A stretch of 21,504 nucleotides of DNA from the IMG/VR virus record IMGVR_UViG_3300025128_000405, positions 1 through 21,504 of that record; one strand, written 5' to 3'. Every line of letters begins with the position of its first letter. Within the stretch, counting starts at the first letter, position 1. This document shows positions 2,161 through 21,504 of this stretch, piece after piece. The position numbers and the translations under genes are program-made. Source of the DNA: a virus. Below the pieces are notes generated by a model. It saw only the letters and a list, made by a program, of their open reading frames with translations, did no database searches and had not been told where the DNA came from.

Positions 2161-3204
2161 ATGGCTAACACTTGGAACCAAGCCGGAACCACCTGGGGTC
2201 AAAATAGTTACGGTCTTCAAACTGAAATTCTAGTCCCTATAACTGGTTTATCAACTACATCAACAGTCGGAAGTGTTTTAGCTTTTAATGAAAGTGGATG
2301 GGGCCAAGATAGTTGGGGTATTGAAACCTGGGGTGAATCCGGTAATGTTGCTGCATTAACAGGTTTATCAGCTACATCTAGTGTAGGTGAATTAAGTGCA
2401 TTTCCTCTACAAGGTTGGGGTAGAACAACATGGGGTGAAGAGCCTTGGGGTGAAAGTAATAACCCTGTCGTCTCGTTACCTGGTTTTACATTAACAACAT
2501 CTTTAAACGTACCTACTGAGTTTGTAGAAATAAGACCTGGTTGGGGTACACTTGACTGGGGTGAAAATGGTTGGGGTACTGTTGAGTCAGCAGTATTTAA
2601 TTTAACAGGATTATCTGCAACATCTTCTGTTGGAGCTTTAACTCCTGACGACATGGCTTTTGGAATAACTGGTTTAAGTTCTTCAACAGCTGTAGGTTCT
2701 TTAATTGCTAAATCAGATTTTAGCACAGTCCTTCCCGCATTTAGTTTACAAAGCACTGTAGGACTTTTATCCGCAGATGATCATTCAGTAGGTTTACCTG
2801 GTTTTTCCGCTACAAGTGCAGTAGGAAGTATATCGCCTGCAGATGTAATGGGTATAACTGCTCCGTCTGCTGCTCAAACTGCTTTAGGAAGTATTACTAT
2901 TACATCTAATCCTGTTGTAGATTTAGTAGGTGTTTCTGCTACAAGCTCTATAGGTTCTTTAACAATAGATAATATAACCCTTGCATTGTTAGCAGGTCAA
3001 TCAGCCACAACAGCTGTAGGATCGTTTACTACTGTACAGGTTACAATTGCTACCTTAAATGGATTAGGTTTAACAGCTGTAACTGCTGTTGGAGAACTTA
3101 CAACTACGGGATATGCTGACATTGACATTACAGGAAATACTACTTATAATGATGTTGACGTTACGGGAAATACATCGTATACAGACGTAACACACGTAGT
3201 TTAG
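2161..3204 (+). CDS. Repeat-rich virion structural protein with Trp-Gly triplets
   Basis: This 347-residue protein is built almost entirely of repeats. About ten to eleven copies of a unit resembling GLSATSSVGxL occur, for example at residues 29-39, 68-78, 150-160, 171-181, 214-224, 257-267 and 280-289. Between the first four units lie three Trp-Gly blocks of the form GWGxxxWGxxxWG (near 46-58, 85-97 and 127-139), with a degenerate start at 5-18. The C-terminus carries two near-identical repeats, DITGNTTYNDV and DVTGNTSYTDV (322-343). A GGAG ribosome binding site precedes the ATG. Short beta repeats of this kind are common in cyanophage and other marine phage virion proteins. A fibrous tail or head-decoration role is likely but not shown. 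Confidence 0.7.
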   Translation: MANTWNQAGTTWGQNSYGLQTEILVPITGLSTTSTVGSVLAFNESGWGQDSWGIETWGESGNVAALTGLSATSSVGELSAFPLQGWGRTTWGEEPWGESNNPVVSLPGFTLTTSLNVPTEFVEIRPGWGTLDWGENGWGTVESAVFNLTGLSATSSVGALTPDDMAFGITGLSSSTAVGSLIAKSDFSTVLPAFSLQSTVGLLSADDHSVGLPGFSATSAVGSISPADVMGITAPSAAQTALGSITITSNPVVDLVGVSATSSIGSLTIDNITLALLAGQSATTAVGSFTTVQVTIATLNGLGLTAVTAVGELTTTGYADIDITGNTTYNDVDVTGNTSYTDVTHVV

Positions 3205-3216
3205 GAGAAAAAAATT

Positions 3217-4638
3217 ATGGCATCAACATATACTGATCTTGGTATAGAACTAATGGCAACCGGTGAAAATGCTGGTACATGGGGAACAAAAACTAATAAC
3301 AATTTATCTTTATTTGAACAATTAACTGGTGGATTTAATTCACAAGCTGTAACTGATTCAGGAACACCAACAGCTTTAACAATTGTAGATGGAGAGACTA
3401 CTGGAACAGCTCAACATAGAATGATTGAACTTACAGGAACTATTTCTGGAGCCAGAGTTGTAACAATTCCTTTAGATGTAGAAACCTTTTATTATTTAAG
3501 AAATTCAACATCCGGTGCATATACAGTACAATTTAAATATGTGTCAGGTTCAGGAGATTCACATACTTTTTCAGCTACAGATAAAGGTGATGCTATTTTA
3601 TTTGCAACAGCAAATGATGGAACAAATCCAGATATATATAAAATAGCAACTGGAGATGTAACTCTTACAGGTACACAAACTTTAACAAACAAAACTTTAA
3701 CTAGTCCTAAAATTGGAACTTCAATTTTAGATACAAGCGGAAACGAATTAGCTTTATTAACAGCTACAGGTTCTGCAGTAAACGAATTTACAATAGCAAA
3801 TGCAGCTACAGGTGCAGGACCAACTCTTTCATCTACAGGTGGTGACTCAAACATAGATATTAACATTACTCCAAAAGGAACTGGAGATGTAGTTCTTGCA
3901 GGTGACACTGTAAAAGTTGGAGACTCTGGAGCGGCAGCGGTCTTAACCTCAAATGGTGCTGGAACACTAACCGTAACAACTGGTGGTGCATCAGACTTAG
4001 TTTTAAGCACAAACTCTGGAACAGATTCTGGAACTATCACAATTACAGATGCAGCAGATGGAAACATTAACATTGCACCAAATGGAAATGGTGTTGTTCA
4101 AGCTGGTGGTTCAGCGGTAAAAGTAGCAGGAAAAGAAACTATTTGGGTTCCAGCAATTGCAATGTATCCAACAACTACAAATGGTGCAGAAGCTGCACAA
4201 ACAGAATTAACAGCTGGACAACCTGAACTTAAATCTTTAGATTTTGATAAAGATAGTGATGAGTTTGCTCAATTTGCAATAGCATTTCCTAAATCATGGA
4301 ATGAAGGCACAGTAACTTTTCAACCTTTTTTTACAGCAAATACAACAAACACGGGTTCAACTAAATTTCTTTTAGCGGGTGTTGCAGTAGCTGATGATGG
4401 TCCTATCGATGCAGCGTTTGGAACAGCACAAGGAACAGCAATAGGATTTAGTGGCACAGCTAATGATTTAATGGTTGGAAATGAATCAGCTGCAATTACA
4501 ATTGCAGGTTCACCTGCGGCAGGTGAACAAGTATTTTTTAATATCTTTAGAGATGTTTCAGCAGATAATTTAACAGCAGATGCAAAACTATTAGGTATAA
4601 AATTATTCTTTACTACTGATGCTGCTAACGACGCATAA
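3217..4638 (+). CDS. Tail fibre protein
   Basis: The protein has 473 residues. The N-terminal GENAGTWGTKTNNNLSLFEQL (16-36) is a conserved start of many marine phage tail fibres. A beta stem follows with LTGTQTLTNKTLTSPKIG (150-167) and two imperfect repeats, NIDINITPKGTGDVVLAG (212-229) and NINIAPNGNGVVQAGG (283-298). The C-terminal part from residue 309 (IWVPAIAMYPTT) to the end resembles a globular module seen on many unrelated marine phage fibres, with FAIAFPKSWNEGTVTFQPFF (353-372) and DAKLLGIKLFFTTDAAND near the end. It probably projects from the tail and contacts the host, with the C-terminal module as the receptor-facing part. It is followed directly by a Gly-rich adhesin-like gene, which supports this role. 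Confidence 0.8.
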   Translation: MASTYTDLGIELMATGENAGTWGTKTNNNLSLFEQLTGGFNSQAVTDSGTPTALTIVDGETTGTAQHRMIELTGTISGARVVTIPLDVETFYYLRNSTSGAYTVQFKYVSGSGDSHTFSATDKGDAILFATANDGTNPDIYKIATGDVTLTGTQTLTNKTLTSPKIGTSILDTSGNELALLTATGSAVNEFTIANAATGAGPTLSSTGGDSNIDINITPKGTGDVVLAGDTVKVGDSGAAAVLTSNGAGTLTVTTGGASDLVLSTNSGTDSGTITITDAADGNINIAPNGNGVVQAGGSAVKVAGKETIWVPAIAMYPTTTNGAEAAQTELTAGQPELKSLDFDKDSDEFAQFAIAFPKSWNEGTVTFQPFFTANTTNTGSTKFLLAGVAVADDGPIDAAFGTAQGTAIGFSGTANDLMVGNESAAITIAGSPAAGEQVFFNIFRDVSADNLTADAKLLGIKLFFTTDAANDA

Positions 4639-4654
4639 TAGATAGGAGTTAAAA

Positions 4655-5608
4655 GTGACAGGATTTGGAAGTAACATATTAGGTTTTGGAACTGGTGGTG
4701 GAGTAATCATCAGAGATCCTTTTACGGCCTCTCACGTACTATTAGTAGGCGGAGCAGGAGGCGGAGGCGGTGACCGTGGAGGCGGTGGAGGTGCAGGAGG
4801 CTATAGACTTCTTACATGTCAACCTTTTCCAGGAGCACCAGTTGTTGTAACAGTTGGAGCAGGATTAGCAGGTTCTTTTGGTGGATCAACTAACCAACCA
4901 GCAGGAAACACTTCAGTAGCATTAGAAGCAGGAACTATAACTGCAAATGGTGGCGGTGGAGGAGCTTCAGGTTTCTCTAATCCAGGTGATGGCGGTGGAT
5001 CAGGTTATGGTGCACCGGGTGGATCTGGCGGTGGAGCAGGTTCTCCTCCTCCAGGAGCAACAGCACCAGGAGGTTCAGGAAACTCTCCTCCAGTAAGTCC
5101 TTCACAAGGAAACCCAGGAGGTTCAGCATCAACAAACGGTACTTTTCAAGACTCAGGTGGTGGTGGTGGAGCTAGTGGCAGCGGATCAGGTTCACCAGCT
5201 GGTCCAGGAGGCGGTGGATCTACAAGTCACGTGCCTCATTTTGGACCTGCACCACAACCTTTTTACGCAACATCACCAGGGGCATATGCCGGTGGCGGTG
5301 GTGGAGGTCAAGATAATAGAGAAGGCCCTCCTCCAGGTTCAGGTGGTTCAGGCGGAGGCGGACCTGGTGGTTCAGGAACAGGAACTGCAGGAGCAGCTGG
5401 TACAGCAAATTCCGGTGGCGGAGGAGGAGGATCCTCACGTTGTAACGGAGGCGGTGGAACAGGTGGATCAGGAACTGTTTTAATTAAAGTTCCATCACCA
5501 CAAGCACCAACAGTTTCAGTAAGTCCTCCAGGATCAGGATCAGTGACAAATTTTCCAGGATATACAGTTGTGGCTTTCACTGCTAGTGGGGAGTTAAAAA
5601 GAGTTTAA
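4655..5608 (+). CDS. Glycine-rich adhesin-like tail protein
   Basis: The start is GTG at 4655, chosen because AGGAG lies six bases upstream (4644-4648). By my count about 107 of 317 residues are Gly, in runs of up to six, mixed with Pro, Ser and Ala. VLLVGGAGGGGG and GGGAGGYR (28-51), TVTVGAG-like strands (around 65-71), and the ending GGSGTVLIKVP then GYTVVAFTASGELKRV match glycine-rich phage tail proteins. Poly-Gly segments in phage adhesins such as the S16 gp38 type fold as packed polyglycine helices that present variable loops to the host receptor; a similar fold here is inference. Placement right after the tail fibre supports a tip adhesin. Collagen-like PPG segments (SPPPGA, EGPPPGSGG) are worth noting beside the downstream hydroxylase-like genes. 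Confidence 0.72.
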   Translation: MTGFGSNILGFGTGGGVIIRDPFTASHVLLVGGAGGGGGDRGGGGGAGGYRLLTCQPFPGAPVVVTVGAGLAGSFGGSTNQPAGNTSVALEAGTITANGGGGGASGFSNPGDGGGSGYGAPGGSGGGAGSPPPGATAPGGSGNSPPVSPSQGNPGGSASTNGTFQDSGGGGGASGSGSGSPAGPGGGGSTSHVPHFGPAPQPFYATSPGAYAGGGGGGQDNREGPPPGSGGSGGGGPGGSGTGTAGAAGTANSGGGGGGSSRCNGGGGTGGSGTVLIKVPSPQAPTVSVSPPGSGSVTNFPGYTVVAFTASGELKRV

Positions 5609-5610
5609 TT

Positions 5611-6096
5611 ATGGCACACTTTGCTAGATTAGATGAAAATAATAAAGTCCTTTACGTAGTGGTTGTGGCTAATGATGTGTCTACTTCAAACGGACCATTA
5701 GGTGAAAATGATATGCATCCTGATGGAGAATCATGGTGCACTAAATTTTTTAAAAAATCTAATTGGAAACAAACTTCATACAATAATAATTTTAGAAAAC
5801 AATATGCAGGTCCTGGTATGACCTATGATGAAAATGCTGATTTATTTATAGCGGTTAAACCTTTTGAATCTTGGATATTAGATAATAATTTTGATTGGCA
5901 ACCACCAGTCGCTAAACCAGACATCTTAGAACATAATGGTACACCCATGTATCCAGAATGGGACGAAGAAAATTTAAGATGGAAAGGTAATAATGGTGAA
6001 GAGGTTGATGGTGTTGTAACTTGGTATGAGTATCTCTGGAATACAGATACTTTTTCGTGGGAAAACAAAACTGTAAAACCTATTTTTAATTCCTAA
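5611..6096 (+). CDS. Conserved marine-phage protein of unknown function
   Basis: This 161-residue protein starts with MAHFARLDENNKVLYVVVVAN. It contains WKQTSYNNNFRKQYAGPGMTYD (52-73), followed by FIAVKPFESWILDNNFDWQPP (79-99) and a Trp-rich C-terminus (TWYEYLWNTDTFSW, 137-150). I recognise this pattern from short proteins that accompany tail genes in cyanophages and other marine phages; I know of no established function. Hydrophobic and aromatic content without signal peptide or membrane segment suggests a compact soluble or virion-associated protein. It starts 2 bases after the adhesin stop and is the last gene before the AT-rich oxygenase cassette. Confidence 0.7.
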   Translation: MAHFARLDENNKVLYVVVVANDVSTSNGPLGENDMHPDGESWCTKFFKKSNWKQTSYNNNFRKQYAGPGMTYDENADLFIAVKPFESWILDNNFDWQPPVAKPDILEHNGTPMYPEWDEENLRWKGNNGEEVDGVVTWYEYLWNTDTFSWENKTVKPIFNS

Positions 6097-6102
6097 TAAT
6101 AC

Positions 6103-6130
6103 TTGATTTAAAATACAAACTCTGTATAAC
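6103..6130 (+). promoter_or_regulatory. Candidate sigma70-type promoter before the oxygenase cassette
   Basis: In the 53-base gap, TTGATT (6103-6108) and TATAAC (6125-6130) are separated by 16 bases. Transcription would start about 12-20 bases before the ATG at 6150. The match is moderate and the region is AT-rich, so chance is possible. The gap is one of only two longer than about 25 bases in the window, which adds some weight. Confidence 0.4.
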
Positions 6131-6149
6131 TAGTTTAAAAGATATACAG

Positions 6150-6776
6150 ATGTTACTAAATTATTATTATTGGTATTTTACTAGTGCTTTGTCACCTAAA
6201 GTGTGTCAAAGAATAATTTCCTTATCTAAACGACATAAAAAATTAAAAGCCATAACAGGCCATTCTACAGAAAAAGTTACTTATCAAAAACTTACTAAAC
6301 AACAAAAATTAAATTTAAGTAAAACAAGAAACTCTAATATTGTATGGCTAAATGAACCTTGGTTGTTTGAATTATTACAATCATATGTAAGAACCGCTAA
6401 TCAAAACTCTGGTTGGAATTTTCAATGGGAGAGAACAGAGTCTATACAATTTACTCAATATAAAAAGAATCAATTTTATGATTGGCATCAAGATACTTTT
6501 CCACATCCTCATACTGAAGGTCCTTTAAAAGGATTAATTAGAAAACTATCTGTAATTGTTTCTTTAACAGATGAAAATAAATATGTTGGAGGTGATCTTG
6601 AATTTAATCTTAGAAATCTAACTAATAAATCAGATAATATAATAACTTGTAAGGAGATAAAACCACAAGGATCTATAGTGGTTTTTCCTTCGCATGTTTG
6701 GCATAGAGTAAAACCAGTAACGAAAGGCACTAGACAATCTTTAGTGATGTGGAATGATGGCAAACCGTTTGTCTAA
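6150..6776 (+). CDS. 2OG-Fe(II) oxygenase, PKHD/PiuC-like prolyl hydroxylase fold (1st of 7)
   Basis: Of the seven tandem oxygenases this 208-residue protein is the easiest to recognise. The N-terminus NYYYWYFTSALSPKVCQRII is typical of PKHD-type (PiuC-like) hydroxylases. Iron ligands are H113 and D115 in YDWHQD, and H185 in FPSHVWHRV. R195 in KGTRQSLVMW is the expected 2-oxoglutarate-binding arginine. KLSVIVSLT and GGDLEFNL strands fill the double-stranded beta-helix in between. Such enzymes use O2 and 2-oxoglutarate to hydroxylate a substrate; the substrate here is unknown. All key residues are present, so activity is expected. It has no strong ribosome binding site and is probably led by the candidate promoter just upstream. 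It overlaps the next gene by 23 bases. Confidence 0.88.
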   Translation: MLLNYYYWYFTSALSPKVCQRIISLSKRHKKLKAITGHSTEKVTYQKLTKQQKLNLSKTRNSNIVWLNEPWLFELLQSYVRTANQNSGWNFQWERTESIQFTQYKKNQFYDWHQDTFPHPHTEGPLKGLIRKLSVIVSLTDENKYVGGDLEFNLRNLTNKSDNIITCKEIKPQGSIVVFPSHVWHRVKPVTKGTRQSLVMWNDGKPFV

Positions 6777-7287
6777 AATACCTTATTTAATTCAACAAGA
6801 TAATTTTTTTACAGAAAAAGAATGTAAATCGTTAATTAGAAAATATAAAAAACTTTGTACATCAGATAGTTTAAAAACATACTTAAATTATAATTATTAT
6901 GATATTAAAATGAATGATGATTGGGGTAAAAAACTATTAGAAATAGTAAACAAATACATAAAGAAATATAAGGGTCTTGATATAATTGAACAATGGGCAA
7001 TTGATAATATTAGATTCAAGCATTTTCCTAAAAATTATTCTTTTGACAAATGGCACTGTGAACAAACAACTAATTATCCATATAGAGTTTTTAGTATTTT
7101 AATTTATTTATCTGATCATAATGTTGGAACAGAATTTTATCACGAAGGTAAAACGATAAAATCAAAAGCAGGTAGAGCTATTATATTTCCTGCTTCTTGG
7201 ACACATATACATAGAGGACAAAAAACAAATAAAGATAGGTACATGTTATCTTGTTATGCATTTTTAAGGAAACCAAATGAGTTTTAA
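6754..7287 (+). CDS. 2OG-Fe(II) oxygenase, prolyl-4-hydroxylase-like with an H-x-E iron motif (2nd of 7)
   Basis: This 177-residue protein follows the prolyl-4-hydroxylase-like plan: YLIQQDNFFTEKECKSLI at the start, then WHCEQ (H101, E103), RVFSILIYLSDHNVGTEFY (111-129), GRAIIFPASWTHIHRG (140-155) with H151 or H153 as the distal ligand, and R162 for 2-oxoglutarate. The acidic ligand appears to be Glu rather than Asp; I recall the WHCE form from other marine phages, so it is probably a subfamily trait. The assigned start is ATG at 6754, with a second ATG codon directly after it; a TTG at 6769 would reduce the 23-base overlap with the previous gene. Substrate unknown. It overlaps the next gene by 11 bases. 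Confidence 0.82.
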   Translation: MMANRLSKIPYLIQQDNFFTEKECKSLIRKYKKLCTSDSLKTYLNYNYYDIKMNDDWGKKLLEIVNKYIKKYKGLDIIEQWAIDNIRFKHFPKNYSFDKWHCEQTTNYPYRVFSILIYLSDHNVGTEFYHEGKTIKSKAGRAIIFPASWTHIHRGQKTNKDRYMLSCYAFLRKPNEF

Positions 7288-7954
7288 AACTAAAGGATAT
7301 GGAGTTATAAAAAAAGCTATTTCAAAAGAATTAGCTGATTTTTGTTATAATTATTTTTTAATTAAAAGGTCTGTGGCAGATACATTTTTTACTCACAACT
7401 ATTTGAAGGGCGATAAAAATTCAGAATGGGGGACTTGGAATGACCCACAAGTTCCGAACGTTTATTCACATTATGCAGACACTTGCATGGAAACTTTATT
7501 ATTAAAATTAAAAAATAAAATGGAAAAATACACAGGTTTAAAATTAGTTCCTACTTATTCTTATGCAAGACTTTATGAAAAAGGTGCTGTTCTGTTTAGA
7601 CACAAAGATAGACCTAGTTGTGAAATATCTACCACACTTAATTTAGGAGGTGAATTATGGCCTATCTATATTGATCCTACAGGAGAGGATAATATTTTAG
7701 CTCATGAATATACTAATAAAGGAGAAGAGGTTAAATTAAAAAGGGGAGCACATAAGGGTGTAAAAGTAGATTTATCCGTAGGAGACATGTTAGTTTATAG
7801 AGGTTGTAATTTAGAACATTGGAGAAAACCTTTTAAAGGTAAAACATGTGGACAAGTATTTTTACACTACAATAATTTTTTAACTCAAGGTAATACTAAT
7901 TTATTTGATGGTAGAATACATGTGGGTTTGCCTAAAGAATTTCAAAGAAAATGA
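7277..7954 (+). CDS. 2OG-Fe(II) oxygenase of a marine-phage type (3rd of 7)
   Basis: This 225-residue protein carries SYARLYEKGAVLFRHKDRPSC in two adjoining motifs (95-115), giving H109 and D111 as iron ligands, then ISTTLNLGGELWPIYID (117-133) and VGDMLVYRGCNLEHWR (168-183) with H181 as the distal ligand. GQVFLHYNNF follows, where many relatives also have Gln rather than a clear arginine, so the 2-oxoglutarate contact is less obvious; K187 or K189 could serve. I recognise this family from cyanophage and other marine phage genomes. The ATG has AAGGA six bases upstream, inside the previous gene. Function beyond the fold is unknown. It overlaps the next gene by ATGA. Confidence 0.82.
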   Translation: MSFKTKGYGVIKKAISKELADFCYNYFLIKRSVADTFFTHNYLKGDKNSEWGTWNDPQVPNVYSHYADTCMETLLLKLKNKMEKYTGLKLVPTYSYARLYEKGAVLFRHKDRPSCEISTTLNLGGELWPIYIDPTGEDNILAHEYTNKGEEVKLKRGAHKGVKVDLSVGDMLVYRGCNLEHWRKPFKGKTCGQVFLHYNNFLTQGNTNLFDGRIHVGLPKEFQRK

Positions 7955-8574
7955 AAGTAGAAAATTATTTTCAAACTCCAATTTATATTTTTGAAAAACC
8001 TGAATGGGTTAAAGAAAGTATTAAAGCTACAAACCCTTATATTAAAGAGGCTATAAAATTAAACAAGCCAAAGTTCTATAATAATAAAGATTTTGGTTTA
8101 GTGCATCATTCAAAACCCATAGTAAAAGAACTAAAATTAAAAAAGCTTATAGATTTTATAGGTAACACAGCTATGAATATTTTAGATAATCAAGGATATA
8201 ATATGTCTTTATATAATTTATTTCTTAATGAAATGTGGGTTCAAGAATTTCCTAAAAATGGTGGAGGCCACCATTCTCCACATAATCATTGGAATGGACA
8301 TATTTCTGGTTTTTATTTTTTAAAATGTTCTAATGAAACTTCTTATCCTGTATTTTACGATCCAAGATCTAGTAAATCAATGAACATGCTAAAACAGAAA
8401 GATGATTCTAAATTAACTTATTCTACGGAACAAGTTCATTTTAAAATAAAACCAGGTACATTATTATTTTTTAATTCATACCTTACACATGAATTTATTG
8501 TTGATAAAGGTATAGAACCTTTTAGATTCATACATTTTAATATTCAAGCTACAGATAAAAACCATGCAATTTGA
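7951..8574 (+). CDS. 2OG-Fe(II) oxygenase superfamily protein, TIGR02466-like with H-x-H (4th of 7)
   Basis: This 207-residue protein begins ENYFQTPIYIF, as expected for the TIGR02466/2OG-FeII_Oxy_5 type. The metal-binding segment is SPHNHWNGHISGFYFL (109-124), with H111 and H113, followed by the distal H180 in YLTHEF and R192 in PFRFIHFNI. There is no Asp or Glu at the usual position two residues after the first ligand. This appears normal for the family, whose signature as I recall it is H-x-H-x-N-S followed by SGxYY, but the exact ligand set is uncertain. GTLLFFNSYLTH is the typical last strands. Substrate unknown. It overlaps its neighbours by 4 and 11 bases. Confidence 0.75.
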   Translation: MKVENYFQTPIYIFEKPEWVKESIKATNPYIKEAIKLNKPKFYNNKDFGLVHHSKPIVKELKLKKLIDFIGNTAMNILDNQGYNMSLYNLFLNEMWVQEFPKNGGGHHSPHNHWNGHISGFYFLKCSNETSYPVFYDPRSSKSMNMLKQKDDSKLTYSTEQVHFKIKPGTLLFFNSYLTHEFIVDKGIEPFRFIHFNIQATDKNHAI

Positions 8575-9145
8575 TCACTGGTTTCCTACAATCATAGGTA
8601 TTAAAAATAATCCTAAACATAAGCAAGTAGAAACTAAACTAGTAAAATTTTGTTTAGATAAAAAGAAAAAAATTAAATCAGGTGGATCGCATTGGTTATC
8701 TCATGAAACATATAATACTTCTACTACCTATAATTTAACGTATGAGCCTTTGTTTTTAAATTTAAACAAATGGGTGTATGATCAAATAGTTAAGTATTGT
8801 CATCATATGGAATATGAAGTTGAACTACTTTGTAGTGGAGTTTGGTTTAACATATACAACAAAGGTGATTATCAAGAATATCACAGACATGCAAAAGATT
8901 GTATTTCAGCAATTTATATTTTAAGCGGTCATAAAAAAGCAGCTAAGATTTATTTTAGATCTCCTATTTTAGAAACAGCACAAGAACCTAAAATTAAAAT
9001 AAATGATAAGAATGCTTATAGGGCTCACTATGAAGCTTTGCCTGGTAACTTATTAATATTTAGATCTAATACAGAACATGCAGTTGAGAAACATTTGATT
9101 GCTGACAAAAGAATAACACTAGCTTATAATTTTAGATTAAAATGA
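8564..9145 (+). CDS. 2OG-Fe(II) oxygenase superfamily protein, TIGR02466-like (5th of 7)
   Basis: This 193-residue protein starts FDHWFPTIIGIKNN, the common opening of the TIGR02466-like group. Key motifs are VWFNIYNKGDYQEYHRHA (93-110) with H107 and H109, then ISAIYIL, then PGNLLIFRSNTEHAVEKH (160-177) with distal H172 and R183 in KRITLAYNF. As in the preceding gene, no acidic residue follows the first histidine. The two share general layout but little identity, so a recent duplication is unlikely. A Lys-rich segment (KKKKIKSGG, 33-41) lies before the core. Substrate unknown. It begins inside the previous gene (11-base overlap) and ends with ATGA shared with the next. Confidence 0.75.
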   Translation: MQFDHWFPTIIGIKNNPKHKQVETKLVKFCLDKKKKIKSGGSHWLSHETYNTSTTYNLTYEPLFLNLNKWVYDQIVKYCHHMEYEVELLCSGVWFNIYNKGDYQEYHRHAKDCISAIYILSGHKKAAKIYFRSPILETAQEPKIKINDKNAYRAHYEALPGNLLIFRSNTEHAVEKHLIADKRITLAYNFRLK

Positions 9146-9660
9146 AATTCTACCAATTAGATAATTTTTTTACTGAGGAAGAAAACAAAACAATAGACTC
9201 AATATTATACGATGCACACTTTCCTGTTTTTTATTATAAAGAACAAGTGATAGGTGATGGTCTTCCTTTCTTTTCTCATGTTTTAATTAACAAAGATACA
9301 CATGAAATTAATTCAAGTTATACTAATTTCTTTTTAATGATCGCCTATAAATTTGTTGCTAAAGTATCTAAGATAGAACCAAAGAATTTTTTAAGAGGTA
9401 ACATAAATTTAACATTGCCTTTTAAAGGTAAACCTAAGTTACATGTAGATCACGAAGAACCTCATTACCAAATAATTATGTATTTAAATGATGCTTCAGG
9501 AACAACTGATATATACAAAGGTAAAAAATTATTTAAAAAAGTTAATCCTAAAAAAGGAAGAATTATTATGTTTAATAAACAACCTCACTTAGCTAATTCT
9601 CCTATTGGAAAAGATGAATTAAGAGCTGTTTGTGTAATGACTTTTAATACTAATGACTAG
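9142..9660 (+). CDS. 2OG-Fe(II) oxygenase-like protein with H-x-D motif (6th of 7)
   Basis: This 172-residue protein opens FYQLDNFFTEEENKTIDSIL and has KLHVDHEEPHYQIIMYLND (99-117). H101 and D103 are likely iron ligands. GRIIMFNKQPHLANSP (139-154) supplies distal H149, and R161 in ELRAVCVMTFN is the probable 2-oxoglutarate contact. The pattern PHxD, YLND and a late H...R pair is seen in other marine phage oxygenases of this size. It shares its order of motifs with the following gene, suggesting an old tandem duplication. All expected catalytic residues are present. Substrate unknown. Confidence 0.75.
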   Translation: MKFYQLDNFFTEEENKTIDSILYDAHFPVFYYKEQVIGDGLPFFSHVLINKDTHEINSSYTNFFLMIAYKFVAKVSKIEPKNFLRGNINLTLPFKGKPKLHVDHEEPHYQIIMYLNDASGTTDIYKGKKLFKKVNPKKGRIIMFNKQPHLANSPIGKDELRAVCVMTFNTND

Positions 9661-10138
9661 AGTTATAGATAATTATTTAAATCAAGAAGATTTTTTGAGA
9701 ATAAAAAACACATTAGGATCTTCGGATTTTCCGTGGTATTATCAAAAAAATATAAATGATAGTCATTCAGAAAAAGATTTAGATTGTTATTTTACTCATT
9801 ATCTTTTTAATCAAAAAAATGGTCAAAGTTCCTTTTACTATATTATCAAACCTATTTTAAATAAATTAAATGTTAAAGCTCTAATAAGAATTAAATCTAA
9901 TCTTTATCCAAGAACTGAAAAATTAGAAATACATAAACCACATTCTGATTATACTTATAAACATAAAGGAGCTATATTTTATATAAATACAAACGATGGA
10001 AAAACTATATTAAATAAAAACAAAGAAATAGATTCTGTAGAAAATAGATTATTGCTCTTTGAACCACATCTTTCTCACAGCAGCACTTCTACTACAAATG
10101 TAAAATCTAGGATAAATATTAATTTTAACTATTTTTAG
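9653..10138 (+). CDS. 2OG-Fe(II) oxygenase-like protein, diverged relative of the preceding gene (7th of 7)
   Basis: This 161-residue protein begins RVIDNYLNQEDFLRIKNTL. It then has EIHKPHSDYTYKHKGAIFYI (92-111), with H97 and D99 as likely iron ligands, NRLLLFEPHLSHSS (131-144) with H139 or H142, and R153 in KSRININFNYF. The order and spacing of these motifs mirror those of the gene just upstream (YLND/YINT, EPHL/QPHL, RAVCVMTFN/RININFNYF). The gene overlaps its neighbour by 8 bases and ends the cassette. It is very AT-rich and Lys/Asn/Ile-rich. Catalytic residues look intact, but conservation to textbook oxygenases is weak, so the assignment leans on the motif series and context. Confidence 0.68.
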   Translation: MTRVIDNYLNQEDFLRIKNTLGSSDFPWYYQKNINDSHSEKDLDCYFTHYLFNQKNGQSSFYYIIKPILNKLNVKALIRIKSNLYPRTEKLEIHKPHSDYTYKHKGAIFYINTNDGKTILNKNKEIDSVENRLLLFEPHLSHSSTSTTNVKSRININFNYF

Positions 10139-10143
10139 CCTGT

Positions 10144-10180
10144 TTGCGTTTTGATATTTATATAGTATAATCAATATAAT
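10144..10180 (+). promoter_or_regulatory. Two overlapping candidate sigma70-type promoters before the large tail gene
   Basis: TTGCGT (10144-10149) and TATAAT (10166-10171) are 16 bases apart, and TTGATA (10151-10156) and TATAAT (10175-10180) are 18 bases apart. Both -10 boxes are exact consensus. The gap is only 62 bases, and the ATG at 10201 follows without a clear ribosome binding site, so a transcript from here would have a leader of only about 10-25 bases. High AT content makes chance TATAAT matches more likely than usual. Confidence 0.45.
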
Positions 10181-10186
10181 ATTGAT
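10170..10186. repeat. 17-base inverted repeat overlapping the -10 region
   Basis: ATCAATAT-A-ATATTGAT is a perfect inverted repeat with 8-base arms around a single central base. It covers the downstream TATAAT box of the candidate promoters, so it could be an operator for a dimeric regulator. An arm this short and AT-rich could also arise by chance, and the symmetry is too short of G/C pairs to be a convincing terminator. Confidence 0.45.
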
Positions 10187-10200
10187 ATAAAGCTTTTACT

Positions 10201-12381
10201 ATGCTACAAAAATTAGGTTTTGCTCCAGGTTTTAACAAACAGGTCACAGAAACAGGTGCTGAAGGGCAATGGTTTGATGGTGATAATGTTAGATTTAGAT
10301 ATGGTACACCTGAAAAAATAGGTGGTTGGACACAATTAGGACAGGACAAATTAACTGGTGCTGCCAGAGCTCTTCATCATTTTGATGATAATGCAGGTAT
10401 TAAATACGCAGCTATAGGAACTAACAGAATTTTATATGTATATTCAGGTGGAACTTATTACGATATACACCCAATTAGAACTACTTTAACAGGTGTTAGT
10501 TTTACAAGCACATCGTCTTCAACTACAGTTACTGTAACCTGTGGCACTAGCCATGGTTTGAACGACAATGATATTGTTATGTTTGATTCTGTCAGCGGTG
10601 TGACAGCAGTAGGTTCTACTTTTACAGATGCAACATTTGAAGACCAAAAATTTATGGTTACTTCAGCACCTACATCAACCACTTTTACAATTACAATGGA
10701 TACTCAAGAAGCAGGAACTCCTTTGTCAACTAGTGGGTCTGCTTCGGTTTTATGTTATTATACAGTGGGTCCATCTCAACAACTTGGTGGTTTTGGTTGG
10801 GGTACGGGTTTATGGTCTGGTGATGCTCCAGGAGCGGTGACGACAACTTTGGCCTCTACTATTAATGACACTGTAACTGATATTCCTTTAACTAGTACAG
10901 CAGCGTTTCCATCATTTGGAGAAATTAGAATTGGATCAGAAGATATAAGTTTTGCTGCTAATAATACTACAACAAATATTTTAAGTGGTGGTGCAAGAGA
11001 AGTTAACGGTACCACTAAGGCAGGACACAGTGCCGGTGCAACTGTAACTAACATTTCTGATTTTTTTGGTTGGGGTGATGCATCTTCTTCTGACTTTACA
11101 ATTGATCCTGGTCTATGGGTTCTTGATAACTTTGGTACAAAATTAATTGCACTTATTTATAATGGTCCATGTTTTGAATGGGACGCAGCTGGTGCTGGTT
11201 CTACTTCTACAAGAGCAACGTTATTAGCGAATGCTCCTACTGCATCACGTCATGTGTTAGTATCTACACCTGACAGACACTTAGTATTTTTTGGAACAGA
11301 AACAACCGTAGGCTCGGCATCGACTCAAGATGATATGTTTATTAGATTCTCAGATCAAGAAAATATTGATGGAACAGATGCGTATACAGTTAAAGCTGAA
11401 AACACTTCCGGCACTCAAAGACTTGCAGATGGTTCTAAAATCATGGGTGCTATAAAAGGTAGAGATGCTATCTATGTATGGACCGATACTGCATTGTTTT
11501 TAATGAAGTTTGTTGGTGGAGATTTTGTATTTGCTTTTGAACAAGTGGGTACTAACTGTGGATTGTTTGGTAAGAATGCTTGTATTGAGGTTGATGGTAC
11601 AGCTTATTGGATGTCTGAGAATGGTTTCTTTACATACGATGGTCAGTTAAGATCACTACCTTGTCTTGTTGAAGACCACGTTTACGATGATATAAATGCT
11701 ACATCTAGAGATCTTATTAATGCAGGATTAAATAATTTGTTTGGTGAGATAAACTGGTTTTATTGTACAGCAGGGTCCAATCAAATTAATAGAGTAGTTA
11801 CATATAATTATTTAGATTCATCACCTAAACGTCCTATATGGACAACAGGAACTTTACCTAGAGCAGCGTGGCAGGATTCAGCTGTATTTGATAGACCACA
11901 TGCAACATTTTATAATCCATCTGATAACGCATCAACCGATTGTACTGGAAACACTGATGGTAGCACTATATACTATAATCAGGAAACAGGGACCGATCAA
12001 ATTAATGCTGGTGGTGTAACAACTGCTGTAATAGGTACTATTACTTCTGGTGATTTTGATATTACCCAACGTAGAAATACTACAGGACAGACTGTAGGAA
12101 TGCCGGACATTAGAGGAGACGGTGAATATATTATGAGAATCAGTAGATTTATACCAGATTTTATTAGTCAGACAGGAAACACTTCTATTAAATTTAAAAC
12201 AAGATTATATCCAAACAGTAGTGAAACCACTACTACGTTTACATGTAGCTCTTCTACGACTAAAAAAGATATAAGAGTAAGAGCTAGACAAATAGCATTA
12301 GAAGTCGCTAACACAACTACAAATGAAGATTGGAAACTAGGAACATTTAGATTAGATATACATCCAGGAGGGAGAAGATAA
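10201..12381 (+). CDS. Large beta-rich tail protein, probable tail nozzle/tube component
   Basis: This 726-residue protein begins MLQKLGFAPGFNKQVTETGA and then WFDGDNVRFRYGTPEKIGGW (24-43). That signature (Trp-Asp-Gly, Val-Arg-Phe-Arg, Pro-Glu-Lys-Ile-Gly-Gly-Trp) opens many podovirus tail proteins of this size. Residues about 90-185 hold a Ser/Thr-rich beta insert with SHGLNDNDIVMF, and about 213-286 a second insert (AFPSFGEIRIG, then HSAGATV) that resembles the module in the gene at 30-845. The remainder has propeller-like strands (DRHLVFFG, IYVWTDTALFLMKFVGGDF, AYWMSENGFFTYDGQ). A tail nozzle binding below the adaptor is the best guess from size, context and the opening motif. It is separated from the adaptor by fibres and the oxygenase cassette. 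The final TAA overlaps the next ATG. Confidence 0.65.
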   Translation: MLQKLGFAPGFNKQVTETGAEGQWFDGDNVRFRYGTPEKIGGWTQLGQDKLTGAARALHHFDDNAGIKYAAIGTNRILYVYSGGTYYDIHPIRTTLTGVSFTSTSSSTTVTVTCGTSHGLNDNDIVMFDSVSGVTAVGSTFTDATFEDQKFMVTSAPTSTTFTITMDTQEAGTPLSTSGSASVLCYYTVGPSQQLGGFGWGTGLWSGDAPGAVTTTLASTINDTVTDIPLTSTAAFPSFGEIRIGSEDISFAANNTTTNILSGGAREVNGTTKAGHSAGATVTNISDFFGWGDASSSDFTIDPGLWVLDNFGTKLIALIYNGPCFEWDAAGAGSTSTRATLLANAPTASRHVLVSTPDRHLVFFGTETTVGSASTQDDMFIRFSDQENIDGTDAYTVKAENTSGTQRLADGSKIMGAIKGRDAIYVWTDTALFLMKFVGGDFVFAFEQVGTNCGLFGKNACIEVDGTAYWMSENGFFTYDGQLRSLPCLVEDHVYDDINATSRDLINAGLNNLFGEINWFYCTAGSNQINRVVTYNYLDSSPKRPIWTTGTLPRAAWQDSAVFDRPHATFYNPSDNASTDCTGNTDGSTIYYNQETGTDQINAGGVTTAVIGTITSGDFDITQRRNTTGQTVGMPDIRGDGEYIMRISRFIPDFISQTGNTSIKFKTRLYPNSSETTTTFTCSSSTTKKDIRVRARQIALEVANTTTNEDWKLGTFRLDIHPGGRR

Positions 12382-17724: not shown

Positions 17725-20700
17725 ATGGCTACCATTTTTGATACCAGCGCATACGGACCAAAAAATAAAGTAGGCACATTTGAATCTATGTTATCAGGTG
17801 TAGCGTCAGGTTTAATTGCTATACCAAAAGGTTTCTTTTCTTTAGGTGCAAGTCTCATGGACCTTGGAGTCAACAGCGGTAAAGCTGCACAAGTAGAGGC
17901 ATTCTTTGATGACCTTACAGAGTTTGATGAAAAAGCAGAAGCAACAGCTGCTGGTAAAATCACAGAAGCATTAGTCAACATTGGTGTACCTGGTGGTATT
18001 GCATTTAAAAGTGCATCAGGTTTATCTAAAGCTGCTATGCTTGCAGCTAAAAATAATAAATACGTTAGATTAGGAAATAAAAATTTACAGAATGCAGCAG
18101 ACGAAGCATTAGAACTTACAGCTGCAGGTAAAGGCAGACAGTTTGTTGCCGGTGCATTAGGCGGTGGTGTAGCAGAAGGTGTGTTTGTAGGTGATGCAGA
18201 AGCTATTGGTACGTTTGGAGATCTTATTGGTGGCCCAACTAAAATAGATAGAAGTGACACAGACCCAGATGCAACAAGAGAAATATTAAACAGAATTAAA
18301 TTTGGTACAGAGGGTGCATTATTTACAGGTATTCTTGGTGGTACAGGTGCAGTTATTAAAAAAATAACAAACAGGAACAAGGGATTAGACACAGCTAACT
18401 CTGAGTTAGATCGATGGATTGATAAAGTTGCATCTAAATTTAGAGCACGTAGTGGTAAGACTCAAGAATTTTTTGATATAGAAAGACAATCTATTGGAGC
18501 ACAAGCAGCTGATGCAAACGTTGCAAGAAATTTATCAAGAGAATTAGATGTAGATATAGATAAATTATTTCCACCTATGCGTACTGTATTTAACAAACAG
18601 TCTGCAAAAGAAAGAACAAAATTTTTAGGTGACGTAAACGATGCGTTGTTATCAGGAGAAGCAAGACTTGGTGATGATGGTATTGCAACTTTTGGAGAAA
18701 TAGATGCAGCAGCTAAACAAAGAGTTACTGAAGGTATTAGAAAATTTGCACCTAACGCACAAGCTGCAGAAGAATTAGAAAAATCTATTCTTGGTGGTTT
18801 GTCTGTTATGAGAAGTAAATGGTCTGAGTTATTTTCTAAACTTGGTGGATCATTAGACGCACAAGACATACAATCTTTTAAATCATTATTTGGTGGTAAG
18901 TTTAAAAACTATCTTGGTTCCACATACGACATATTTCAAGACAAAAGTATTCTACCATGGATGAGATACAAACCTTCAGCAGAAGCAATAACTAATGCTA
19001 AAGATTTATTTAAAGCAAGTGCAAGAGAAGCGGGTAAAGATATTACAGATCTAGAAGCAGAGCAAATTGTAAACAATGTGTTAAAAACTTCTGGACTACC
19101 TAAAGGTATTAGAATGGATAAACCTTCTGATGCATTATTTAACATACCAGATTTTTTTGTAAACAGAACAGCGTTAGATGATGCTGTTAAGCGTGGGGGT
19201 ATTGCTAGAATATCTATTAGAGATTTAGATTCCGCAGCCGATAGAAAAGTATTTGATGATTTATTTGGTAAACAAAAAAACCCTATGCAAACAATGATAG
19301 GTGGTATGGCTAAACTATCTTTAATTACAAGACGTAATTTATTTTACGATGATCTTATAAAAAAGAATGACGAAGTTGTTGCTAATTGGACAGCGGCTGC
19401 TGATAAACAATCAGTACCACAACCTATGTTTGCTAGATCAGAACAAGAAGCTAGAGCTTTCTTTGGTGATGACTTTACTAGAATAGAAGTTATTGATCCT
19501 GCTCAAACTTTAAACGTAAACATTGCGTCAGGTGCAAGTAACCCTTTTGGTGATATTGCAAAACCTTTCTTTGCAAGACCAGGTGTTGCCGAAGCTATGA
19601 AGAACACATCTTTAAATACACAAAGCTCAGGTATATTAGGTAGACTATATGAAAGTCTGGTGTTGTATCCTAAAGCTACATCACAAATTGCTAAAACAAT
19701 TTTATCACCAGTAACACACTTAAGAAATTTTGTTAGTGCTGGAGCTTTTGCTGCAGCAAATGGTATTGTACCTGCAGCTGACACAGCAGCAATCAAACAA
19801 GCTTATCAAGCATTACAAACACCGCTTAAAGGTACGAGACAACAAAATGATTTATACCAAGAACTATTAGAATTAGGTGTTGTAAACTCTAACGTAAGAC
19901 TTGGAGATCTATCAAGACTGTTACAAGATGTAAACTTTGGTGAGACTATGACATCTGACAAAGGTATGAGATTGTTATTAAAACCGTTATCAAAATTAAA
20001 ATCTGTATCACAAGATTTGTACACTGCTGAAGATGACTTTTGGAAGATATATTCTTGGGCTGTAGAGAAATCTAGATTAGAAAAAGCATATGAAAAAATT
20101 GGTGTAACAAGAGGACAGTTTTTTAAACGTAATGGTGTTGACGTAAGACTCGATGAAAAATTTTTAAAAGAAGAAGCAGCTGATATTGTAAGAAATAATA
20201 TACCTAACTATGATTATGTATCTGACTTTGTAAAAGGTTTAAGAAAATTACCGATTGGTAACTTCGTATCTTTCCCAGCAGAGATAGCTAGAACAGGCAC
20301 AAATATTGTAAGACGAGCATTAAGAGAGATAAACGAAACTATAACTTTACCTGATGGTAGAGTAGTTAAACCTATGGAAGGCATTGGTTATACTAGATTA
20401 TTAGGTTTTACGACTACAGTTGCAGCTGTACCAGTAGCTACAACAGCAGCATTCCAGGCCCTATACGACGTCACAGACGAGGAAAGAGAGGCTATTCGTA
20501 GGTTTGCAGCTCAATGGTCAAAAAACTCTACATTGCTACCTATTAAACAAGAAGATGGTAGTTTTAAATACATAGATTTTAGTCATGCTAATGCATACGA
20601 TACATTACTTAGACCACTACAATCAGTAGTTAACGCTGTTCAAGATGGTAGAACAGATCAAGATGGTATTATGGATGACTTCGCAAAAGGTGTGTTCACA

Positions 20701-21504
20701 GCCATGTCAGAATTTGGTCAACCATTTATTTCAGAATCTATTTGGACAGAAGCAGTATTAGATATTATTGCAAGAGGTGGTAGAACAAGAGAAGGTTTTC
20801 AAATCTACAGTGAAAAAGATACTGATGGTGACAAGATGAGTAAGATAATGTCACATTTAGTAAAAGCACAAATGCCTTTTTCATTAGATCAATTAAAAAG
20901 ATTAGATCAATCTATAGAGTCTGTTGATGTAATTACTAAAGGTAAGTTTGATGAATATGGTCAAGATTTTGAATTTGGTGATGAGTTTGGTGGATTGTTT
21001 GGTTTTAGAGCTGTTAATGTAAATCCTGATAGAGCAATGAATTTTAAAGTTGCAAACTTTCAAAGAGGTGTAAGGGATTCAAGAAGTTTATTTACTAGAG
21101 TTGTATTAAAAGGTGGACCTATTGAACCAACTGAAGTTGTAGATGCATACATCAACGCTAACCGTGCATTGTTTGATACTAAAAAAACTTTAAAAGGTGA
21201 CTTAGATGCTGCAAGACTTTTAAATATTTCTGATACAGGTTTAACAAATGCACTAGATAGAATTTCTGACGTTGAAGTAAGCAACATCGATCAAAATATA
21301 TTTACACCTTACTCTCTATCGGCAGAAGTTATTTCTGCAATATCAGACAACGCTGCAAAAATTGGAGCAAGAGATCCGTTAGAAGCTGCAGGTGAAACTA
21401 TAGCTAATTTAGAAGCACAATTTAGTAATGTAAGTTTAACACTACCTGAGTTTCCTGTATTTGAAAACCCATTACGACCTATCATGCAGGACACACCACT
21501 AGGT
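17725..21504 (+). CDS. Giant internal (ejection-type) virion protein, partial at 3' end
   Basis: From ATG 17725 the frame stays open for 1260 codons to the last base, so the protein is longer than the window shows. It opens ATIFDTSAYGPKNKVGTFES and continues with a hydrophobic segment MLSGVASGLIAIPKGFFSLG (22-41), then DDLTEFDEKAEATAAGKITE (57-76). I recognise this start from large structural proteins of uncultured marine phages. Further hydrophobic segments lie at 193-211 (ALFTGILGGTGAVI), 670-690 (SAGAFAAANGIV) and 893-912 (LGFTTTVAAVPVATTAAFQA), in a mostly helical, charged background. By size, place and layout it resembles the large internal core proteins of podoviruses that form a channel through the cell envelope during DNA entry. 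No lysozyme or transglycosylase motif was recognised in the visible part. Confidence 0.78.
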   Translation, partial: MATIFDTSAYGPKNKVGTFESMLSGVASGLIAIPKGFFSLGASLMDLGVNSGKAAQVEAFFDDLTEFDEKAEATAAGKITEALVNIGVPGGIAFKSASGLSKAAMLAAKNNKYVRLGNKNLQNAADEALELTAAGKGRQFVAGALGGGVAEGVFVGDAEAIGTFGDLIGGPTKIDRSDTDPDATREILNRIKFGTEGALFTGILGGTGAVIKKITNRNKGLDTANSELDRWIDKVASKFRARSGKTQEFFDIERQSIGAQAADANVARNLSRELDVDIDKLFPPMRTVFNKQSAKERTKFLGDVNDALLSGEARLGDDGIATFGEIDAAAKQRVTEGIRKFAPNAQAAEELEKSILGGLSVMRSKWSELFSKLGGSLDAQDIQSFKSLFGGKFKNYLGSTYDIFQDKSILPWMRYKPSAEAITNAKDLFKASAREAGKDITDLEAEQIVNNVLKTSGLPKGIRMDKPSDALFNIPDFFVNRTALDDAVKRGGIARISIRDLDSAADRKVFDDLFGKQKNPMQTMIGGMAKLSLITRRNLFYDDLIKKNDEVVANWTAAADKQSVPQPMFARSEQEARAFFGDDFTRIEVIDPAQTLNVNIASGASNPFGDIAKPFFARPGVAEAMKNTSLNTQSSGILGRLYESLVLYPKATSQIAKTILSPVTHLRNFVSAGAFAAANGIVPAADTAAIKQAYQALQTPLKGTRQQNDLYQELLELGVVNSNVRLGDLSRLLQDVNFGETMTSDKGMRLLLKPLSKLKSVSQDLYTAEDDFWKIYSWAVEKSRLEKAYEKIGVTRGQFFKRNGVDVRLDEKFLKEEAADIVRNNIPNYDYVSDFVKGLRKLPIGNFVSFPAEIARTGTNIVRRALREINETITLPDGRVVKPMEGIGYTRLLGFTTTVAAVPVATTAAFQALYDVTDEEREAIRRFAAQWSKNSTLLPIKQEDGSFKYIDFSHANAYDTLLRPLQSVVNAVQDGRTDQDGIMDDFAKGVFTAMSEFGQPFISESIWTEAVLDIIARGGRTREGFQIYSEKDTDGDKMSKIMSHLVKAQMPFSLDQLKRLDQSIESVDVITKGKFDEYGQDFEFGDEFGGLFGFRAVNVNPDRAMNFKVANFQRGVRDSRSLFTRVVLKGGPIEPTEVVDAYINANRALFDTKKTLKGDLDAARLLNISDTGLTNALDRISDVEVSNIDQNIFTPYSLSAEVISAISDNAAKIGARDPLEAAGETIANLEAQFSNVSLTLPEFPVFENPLRPIMQDTPLG

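Follow-up and report, generated by a model that had tools for sequence, protein, structure and literature searches.

Cyanophages S-SM1 and S-RSM4, which have T4-like genomes, each carry nine genes resembling 2-oxoglutarate (2OG)-Fe(II) oxygenases. Each array occupies a short stretch downstream of a tail-fibre gene, with one or two unrelated genes between its members. Their annotation is piecemeal: products are called oxygenase, leprecan, DNA endonuclease V, ferrochelatase or hypothetical. Pelagibacter phage HTVC008M, with a 147-kb Kyanoviridae genome, has five or six consecutive oxygenase-like genes near its neck genes, on the strand opposite to their neighbours. For pelagiphages, the passages of Wittmers et al. 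2022 (PMC9599517) that deal with such genes describe eight oxygenases that are not orthologous, lie nearby without being adjacent, and have 'ferrochelatases' as neighbours; no link to fibre exchange is described in those passages. Here, we analyse an ocean-phage fragment, the viral record IMGVR_UViG_3300025128_000405. The window is the entire record, of 21,504 bases, and contains seven genes (g1 to g7) that overlap, run in one direction and are predicted to encode an array of 2OG-Fe(II) oxygenases. The array sits between genes for glycine-rich fibre proteins and a gene, stab726, for a tail stabilisation-like protein. This order of fibre genes, oxygenase genes and stabilisation gene matches that of HTVC023P-type pelagiphages (HTVC023P and 023Pt_psg01). 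There too, the slot precedes the stabilisation gene, and genes of the g1, g4 and g3 types are consecutive, although these phages have only four to five oxygenases. The cyanophage arrays draw on the same families as the window, and that of HTVC008M includes a relative of g3.

Comparison with related contigs shows that the array moves together with a fibre gene. Two contigs, L165 and L167, share approximately positions 3500-10200 with the window. Here, DNA identity is 94-99% across the array and u161, a small gene preceding it, and 79-90% in the fibre region. The stab726 proteins are merely 57-58% identical. Similarly, L166 has the array in common with the window and a stab726 protein that is 59% identical. 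The reverse case is L004, where stab726 is 96% identical and both fibre and array are unrelated to those of the window. The glycine-rich fibre gene is common to the window, L164, L165 and L167 along with the array, and both are absent from L004. The breakpoint is near window positions 10150-10484. Loci with similar fibres also tend to have similar arrays (Mantel r 0.30-0.34, p <= 0.001); the equivalent comparison of arrays with stab726, the physically closer gene, gave no significant correlation. Note that few locus pairs have clearly related fibres, so the breakpoints outweigh the correlation as evidence. We conclude that these phages exchange the glycine-rich fibre gene, u161 and the array as a single module. 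It is this co-exchange as a unit that is new here.

The extent and variability of such arrays were assessed in relatives found by anchoring on stab726 rather than on the oxygenases. This gave 80 loci, with at least 72% identity in the stabilisation gene. Wherever upstream tail genes were in view (22 of 22 loci), three to nine oxygenase genes, with a median of five, lay between the fibre and stabilisation genes. The array therefore occupies a fixed slot. These counts, which are based on hidden Markov models, are probably low, with at least one oxygenase-like open reading frame (ORF) missed (L057:8106-8660). Among the same 22 loci, a g1-type gene was present in 21 and a g3-type gene in 19; the g4 type was often found too. 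A preliminary description of the window had suggested that a run of seven might be without precedent. This is refuted by runs of nine in two relatives (L016 and L077) and eight in another (L045), and by the nine genes of each cyanophage. The same description proposed, as one of two readings, a dedicated multi-step pathway. That idea is weakened; number and order differ between phages, around a recurrent core of g1- and g3-type genes. Since both vary, a set of optional modifications fits better than a fixed, obligatory seven-step pathway.

Enzymes of other kinds are also found in the slot. Genes for PF04820 flavin-dependent halogenases (Trp_halogenase-type) are inside or adjoin arrays in 11 loci, and a PF13469/PF00685 sulfotransferase is in the slot of seven. 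Carbamoyltransferase-like and methyltransferase-like genes occur in relatives as well. The slot thus appears, from its gene content, to be a cassette whose changeable contents are enzymes for chemical tailoring, most of them oxygenases. Some individual cases can be noted. The L108 carbamoyltransferase is split across two overlapping ORFs, possibly by a frameshift or an assembly error. One relative has a haem oxygenase gene between its oxygenase genes (L152:4590-5150). Genes resembling recombination endonuclease VII (PF02945) lie between array genes at L214:482-898 and in six other loci, and are possibly tied to movement of the module.

All seven ORFs were found at the positions originally described, with overlaps of exactly 23, 11, 4, 11, 4 and 8 bases, and all are oxygenase-like as proposed. 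For g1, g2, g4 and g5 the assignment comes from Pfam, with matches above the curated cut-off to PF13640 (g1 and g2) or PF13759 (g4 and g5). Matches of g6 and g7 to PF13640 are weak (18 bits, against a cut-off of 27), though 32 of 56 members of their common family match this model; g3 had no useful Pfam match. PHROG sorts the seven genes into four types: phrog_61 (g1/g2), phrog_81 (g4/g5), phrog_274 (g6/g7) and phrog_2954 (g3). Hence, the diversity noted in the preliminary description stands, while its figure of at least five sequence types does not. As the least certain types, g3 and g7 were modelled with AlphaFold, using alignments of 79 g3-family and 56 g6/g7-family sequences. The predicted local distance difference test (pLDDT) and predicted template modelling (pTM) scores were 95.3 and 0.91 for g3, and 94.2 and 0.90 for g7, which is mainly beta. 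In Foldseek comparisons with the PDB, the matches listed for either model were almost all 2OG oxygenases (Pseudomonas putida prolyl hydroxylase, PHD2 and others). Those for g3 (best E 9.7e-9) include several antibiotic-tailoring oxygenases. Those listed for g7 (best E 1.7e-7) were almost all prolyl hydroxylases. Thus, in a structural check that the preliminary description had suggested, both models have the oxygenase fold, and we conclude that g3 and g7 are predicted to fold as 2OG oxygenases. The nearest folds of g3 and g7 are protein prolyl hydroxylases, one of which was solved with EF-Tu. Fold and order of metal ligands are like those of prolyl-4-hydroxylase/PHD-type enzymes (P. putida P4H, PDB 4j25 and 4iw3), but sequence identity is merely about 9-18%, and the substrate cannot be inferred from the likeness. 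A PDB sequence search with g3 and g7 profiles gave no informative match. Comparing the g3 profile with those of the other array families gave nothing significant (<=21% probability), so placement of g3 rests on its fold. For g6, the double-stranded beta-helix is assigned solely from membership in the g7 family.

In every family tested, the HxD/E/H motif and distal His show little or no variation, and metal-site residues are kept in nearly all members examined (67-238 per family). This includes the iron-binding HxD/E...H triad of the g1, g2, g3 and g7 families. In g4 and g5, HxH replaces HxD/E, and is conserved across all PF13759-type members examined. The late Arg reported for six of the seven genes was confirmed (g1, g2, g4, g5, g6 and g7); relatives of g2 have Lys at this position. 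In the g3 family, an invariant Gln193 is found instead, with invariant Arg98 and Arg183 elsewhere. Because Gln sits where most have the 2OG-binding Arg, cofactor use by g3 is the least certain among the seven.

The array is also intact. The same seven genes, with identical order and lengths, are present in five more contigs (L003, L164, L165, L166 and L167), and other contigs have partial copies. No broken copies of array genes were found in the relatives compared, so neither of the two outcomes that the preliminary description had named as refuting was seen. Ratios of non-synonymous to synonymous substitution (dN/dS) were mostly 0.04-0.32 for array genes, in comparisons with sufficient divergence. 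We conclude that purifying selection acts on every gene of the array. Its recurrence in other contigs at these dN/dS values points to more than a chance arrangement. Consistent with the preliminary description, this is a diverse, overlapping and co-oriented set, and it is intact and conserved in related genomes.

Two database labels need comment. The PHROG label for g3 is 'ferrochelatase'. However, none of the 79 family members matched a Pfam ferrochelatase model, and there was no ferrochelatase among the 50 PDB matches listed for the fold. The label for g6 and g7 is 'DNA endonuclease V' (DenV). The DenV fold is all-helical; the g7 model is mainly beta, with matches to prolyl hydroxylases. Given the oxygenase folds of g3 and g7, and the lack of any ferrochelatase match, both labels are misleading and appear wrong. 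Published reports of ferrochelatases in pelagiphages, whether seasonal or as partners, rest on the phrog_2954 label. If 'ferrochelatase' is another oxygenase, the haem reading of those genes falls away.

What might the array do? We tentatively favour a swappable cassette of tailoring enzymes, whose likeliest target is the tail fibre to which it is linked, or another tail protein close by. Mobility of the array together with the fibre gene suggests chemical decoration of the parts with which the phage binds its host, and it is this co-exchange that singles out these proteins as the likeliest substrates. The enzymes would act inside the infected cell and ahead of assembly, adding hydroxyl groups to residues of the linked fibre/adhesin or neighbouring tail protein, or oxidising them in other ways. 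Modified residues could take the receptor-binding surface past the limits of 20 amino acids. Since the enzymes would alter this surface, fibre and modifiers would be inherited as a set. The other tailoring chemistries in the slot, together with the protein-hydroxylase folds, indicate chemical tailoring of a macromolecule. As support for fibre tailoring in particular, the halogenase, sulfotransferase and carbamoyltransferase genes are suggestive, as are the prolyl hydroxylases nearest to the modelled folds. Tail-fibre tips formed by gp38, which carry glycine-rich motifs, are known to bind receptors (PMC12892980). This analogy is suggestive too, though what T2-type gp38 and the glycine-rich protein of the window share is composition and a place in a fibre gene block; the latter had no PDB sequence match. 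A broader proposal, which we advance with still more reserve, is that abundant ocean phages carry interchangeable oxidising, halogenating and sulfating cassettes, inherited with receptor-binding fibres and chemically diversifying them. This would be a post-translational route to host-range variation. The linkage makes the purpose of many phage 2OG oxygenases directly testable, as modified residues on virion fibres.

Several observations weigh against decoration of the fibre. The amino-acid composition of the fibre could not be related convincingly to array size, nor to presence of halogenase or sulfotransferase genes; the trends were weak and uncorrected, and groups were small. The correlation between fibres and arrays leans on few informative pairs, with clearly related fibres in 14 of 2,278. 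Fibre and array are neighbours, and recombination tracts spanning both could suffice for co-exchange through linkage alone. Finally, the HTVC008M array adjoins neck genes, rather than following directly behind a fibre gene. The main rival is that the enzymes modify the host surface (an outer-membrane protein, lipid or polysaccharide), for instance blocking adsorption of competitors, with linkage to the fibre via a common receptor. We regard this as possible but rather doubtful. Co-exchange with the fibre fits this reading as well, PhyH-like, sulfotransferase and carbamoyltransferase chemistry suits lipids and sugars too, and HTVC023P has a glycosyltransferase gene further downstream. Conversely, the nearest folds of g3 and g7 are mostly peptide or protein hydroxylases, and an array in the tail block is expected to be expressed late (timing deduced from position), when blocking adsorption helps less.

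Manipulation of 2OG or iron, a hotspot for cargo genes and a small-molecule pathway are all less likely than the fibre and host-surface readings. Auxiliary metabolism, acting on host 2OG, nitrogen or iron, or on iron/haem with ferrochelatase, has precedents. Sullivan et al. 2010 proposed 2OG modulation for cyanophages (PMC3037559), Wittmers et al. 2022 paired 2OG oxygenases with 'ferrochelatase' in pelagiphages (PMC9599517), and expression of host iron transporters rises on infection by HTVC027P (PMC12753301). One relative also has its haem oxygenase in the slot. Nonetheless, the predicted fold of the 'ferrochelatase' is that of a 2OG oxygenase and 79 family members yielded no ferrochelatase match, while a 2OG drain would need neither three to nine diverse, conserved enzymes nor linkage to a fibre gene; we think this explanation unlikely. 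We give similarly little weight to a recombination hotspot that gathers small genes, the oxygenases being cargo of some loose use that share no substrate. It would account for the widely varying order and number, and for endonuclease VII-like genes between array genes of seven relatives, but not for the strong restriction of the slot to tailoring enzymes, oxygenases among them, for a g1/g3-type core in most loci, or for purifying selection on all seven genes. Least probable by some way is a role in producing or altering a small molecule, a peptide natural product or a nucleic acid. Natural-product tailoring typically involves halogenases, 2OG oxygenases and methyltransferase-like genes, and the antibiotic-tailoring neighbours of g3 also fit; against this, the window showed no recognisable gene for a synthase, precursor peptide or carrier protein, and the matches listed for g7 are almost all prolyl hydroxylases.

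Features of the window and of related arrays. Positions are those of the window unless a locus is named.
Feature	Position	Strand	Description
Gly-rich fibre/adhesin-like protein (Gly_rich_2), 317 aa	4655..5608	+	PF21722 3e-9; co-exchanged with array
u161	5611..6096	+	Small protein between fibre gene and array, without assigned function; phrog_7759, 8.7e-35
g1	6150..6776	+	2OG-Fe(II) oxygenase; PF13640, phrog_61; H113xD115, H185, R195
g2	6754..7287	+	2OG-Fe(II) oxygenase; PF13640, phrog_61; H101xE103, H153, R162 (Lys in relatives)
g3	7277..7954	+	Predicted divergent 2OG oxygenase fold; phrog_2954 label 'ferrochelatase'; H109-K-D111, H181, Q193
g4	7951..8574	+	PF13759-type 2OG oxygenase, phrog_81; HxH motif: H111xH113, H180, R192
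g5	8564..9145	+	PF13759-type 2OG oxygenase, phrog_81; HxH motif: H107xH109, H172, R183
g6	9142..9660	+	2OG oxygenase-like; phrog_274 label 'DNA endonuclease V'
g7	9653..10138	+	2OG oxygenase, predicted prolyl-hydroxylase-like fold; phrog_274 label 'DNA endonuclease V'; H97xD99, H142, R153
stab726	10201..12381	+	Tail stabilisation-like protein; right-hand bound of array and exchange boundary
S-SM1 array	L265:8393-14646		T4-GC 240, 412, 1432, 100, 611, 54, 1435, 615
S-RSM4 array	L266:6814-13086		Nine oxygenase-like genes after tail fibre
Halogenase loci	L098:2403-3920, L108, L132, L139, L140, L057, L081, L089, L182, L230; L076		L076 more divergent
Sulfotransferase-like loci	L113:4572-5321, L137:5790-6566, L155, L009, L157, L091, L097; also L118:3850-5118
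Carbamoyltransferase-like loci	L108:4325-5780; L081:3974-5305		PF16861

The table lists the features discussed above. The gene for stab726 (726 aa) begins 62 bases past g7. Its product is 44-48% identical to proteins of cultured pelagiphages, and a gammaproteobacterial-phage gene with which it aligns carries the annotation 'stabilization protein'. Judging by such relationships, the fragment belongs to a phage related to HTVC023P-type pelagiphages, and its probable host is that of these relatives. Of 77 stabilisation-gene loci with tail context, 59 have a u161 gene upstream of the array. A scan for promoters and terminators gave no more sites than shuffled sequence. Further upstream, positions 2161-3204 encode a protein that resembles fibres and contains W-G motifs (WGxxxWG) in repeats; it is also found upstream of arrays in relatives. 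At the other end, positions 17725-21504 contain a long frame resembling an internal virion protein, with 1260 aa before it runs off the end of the record.

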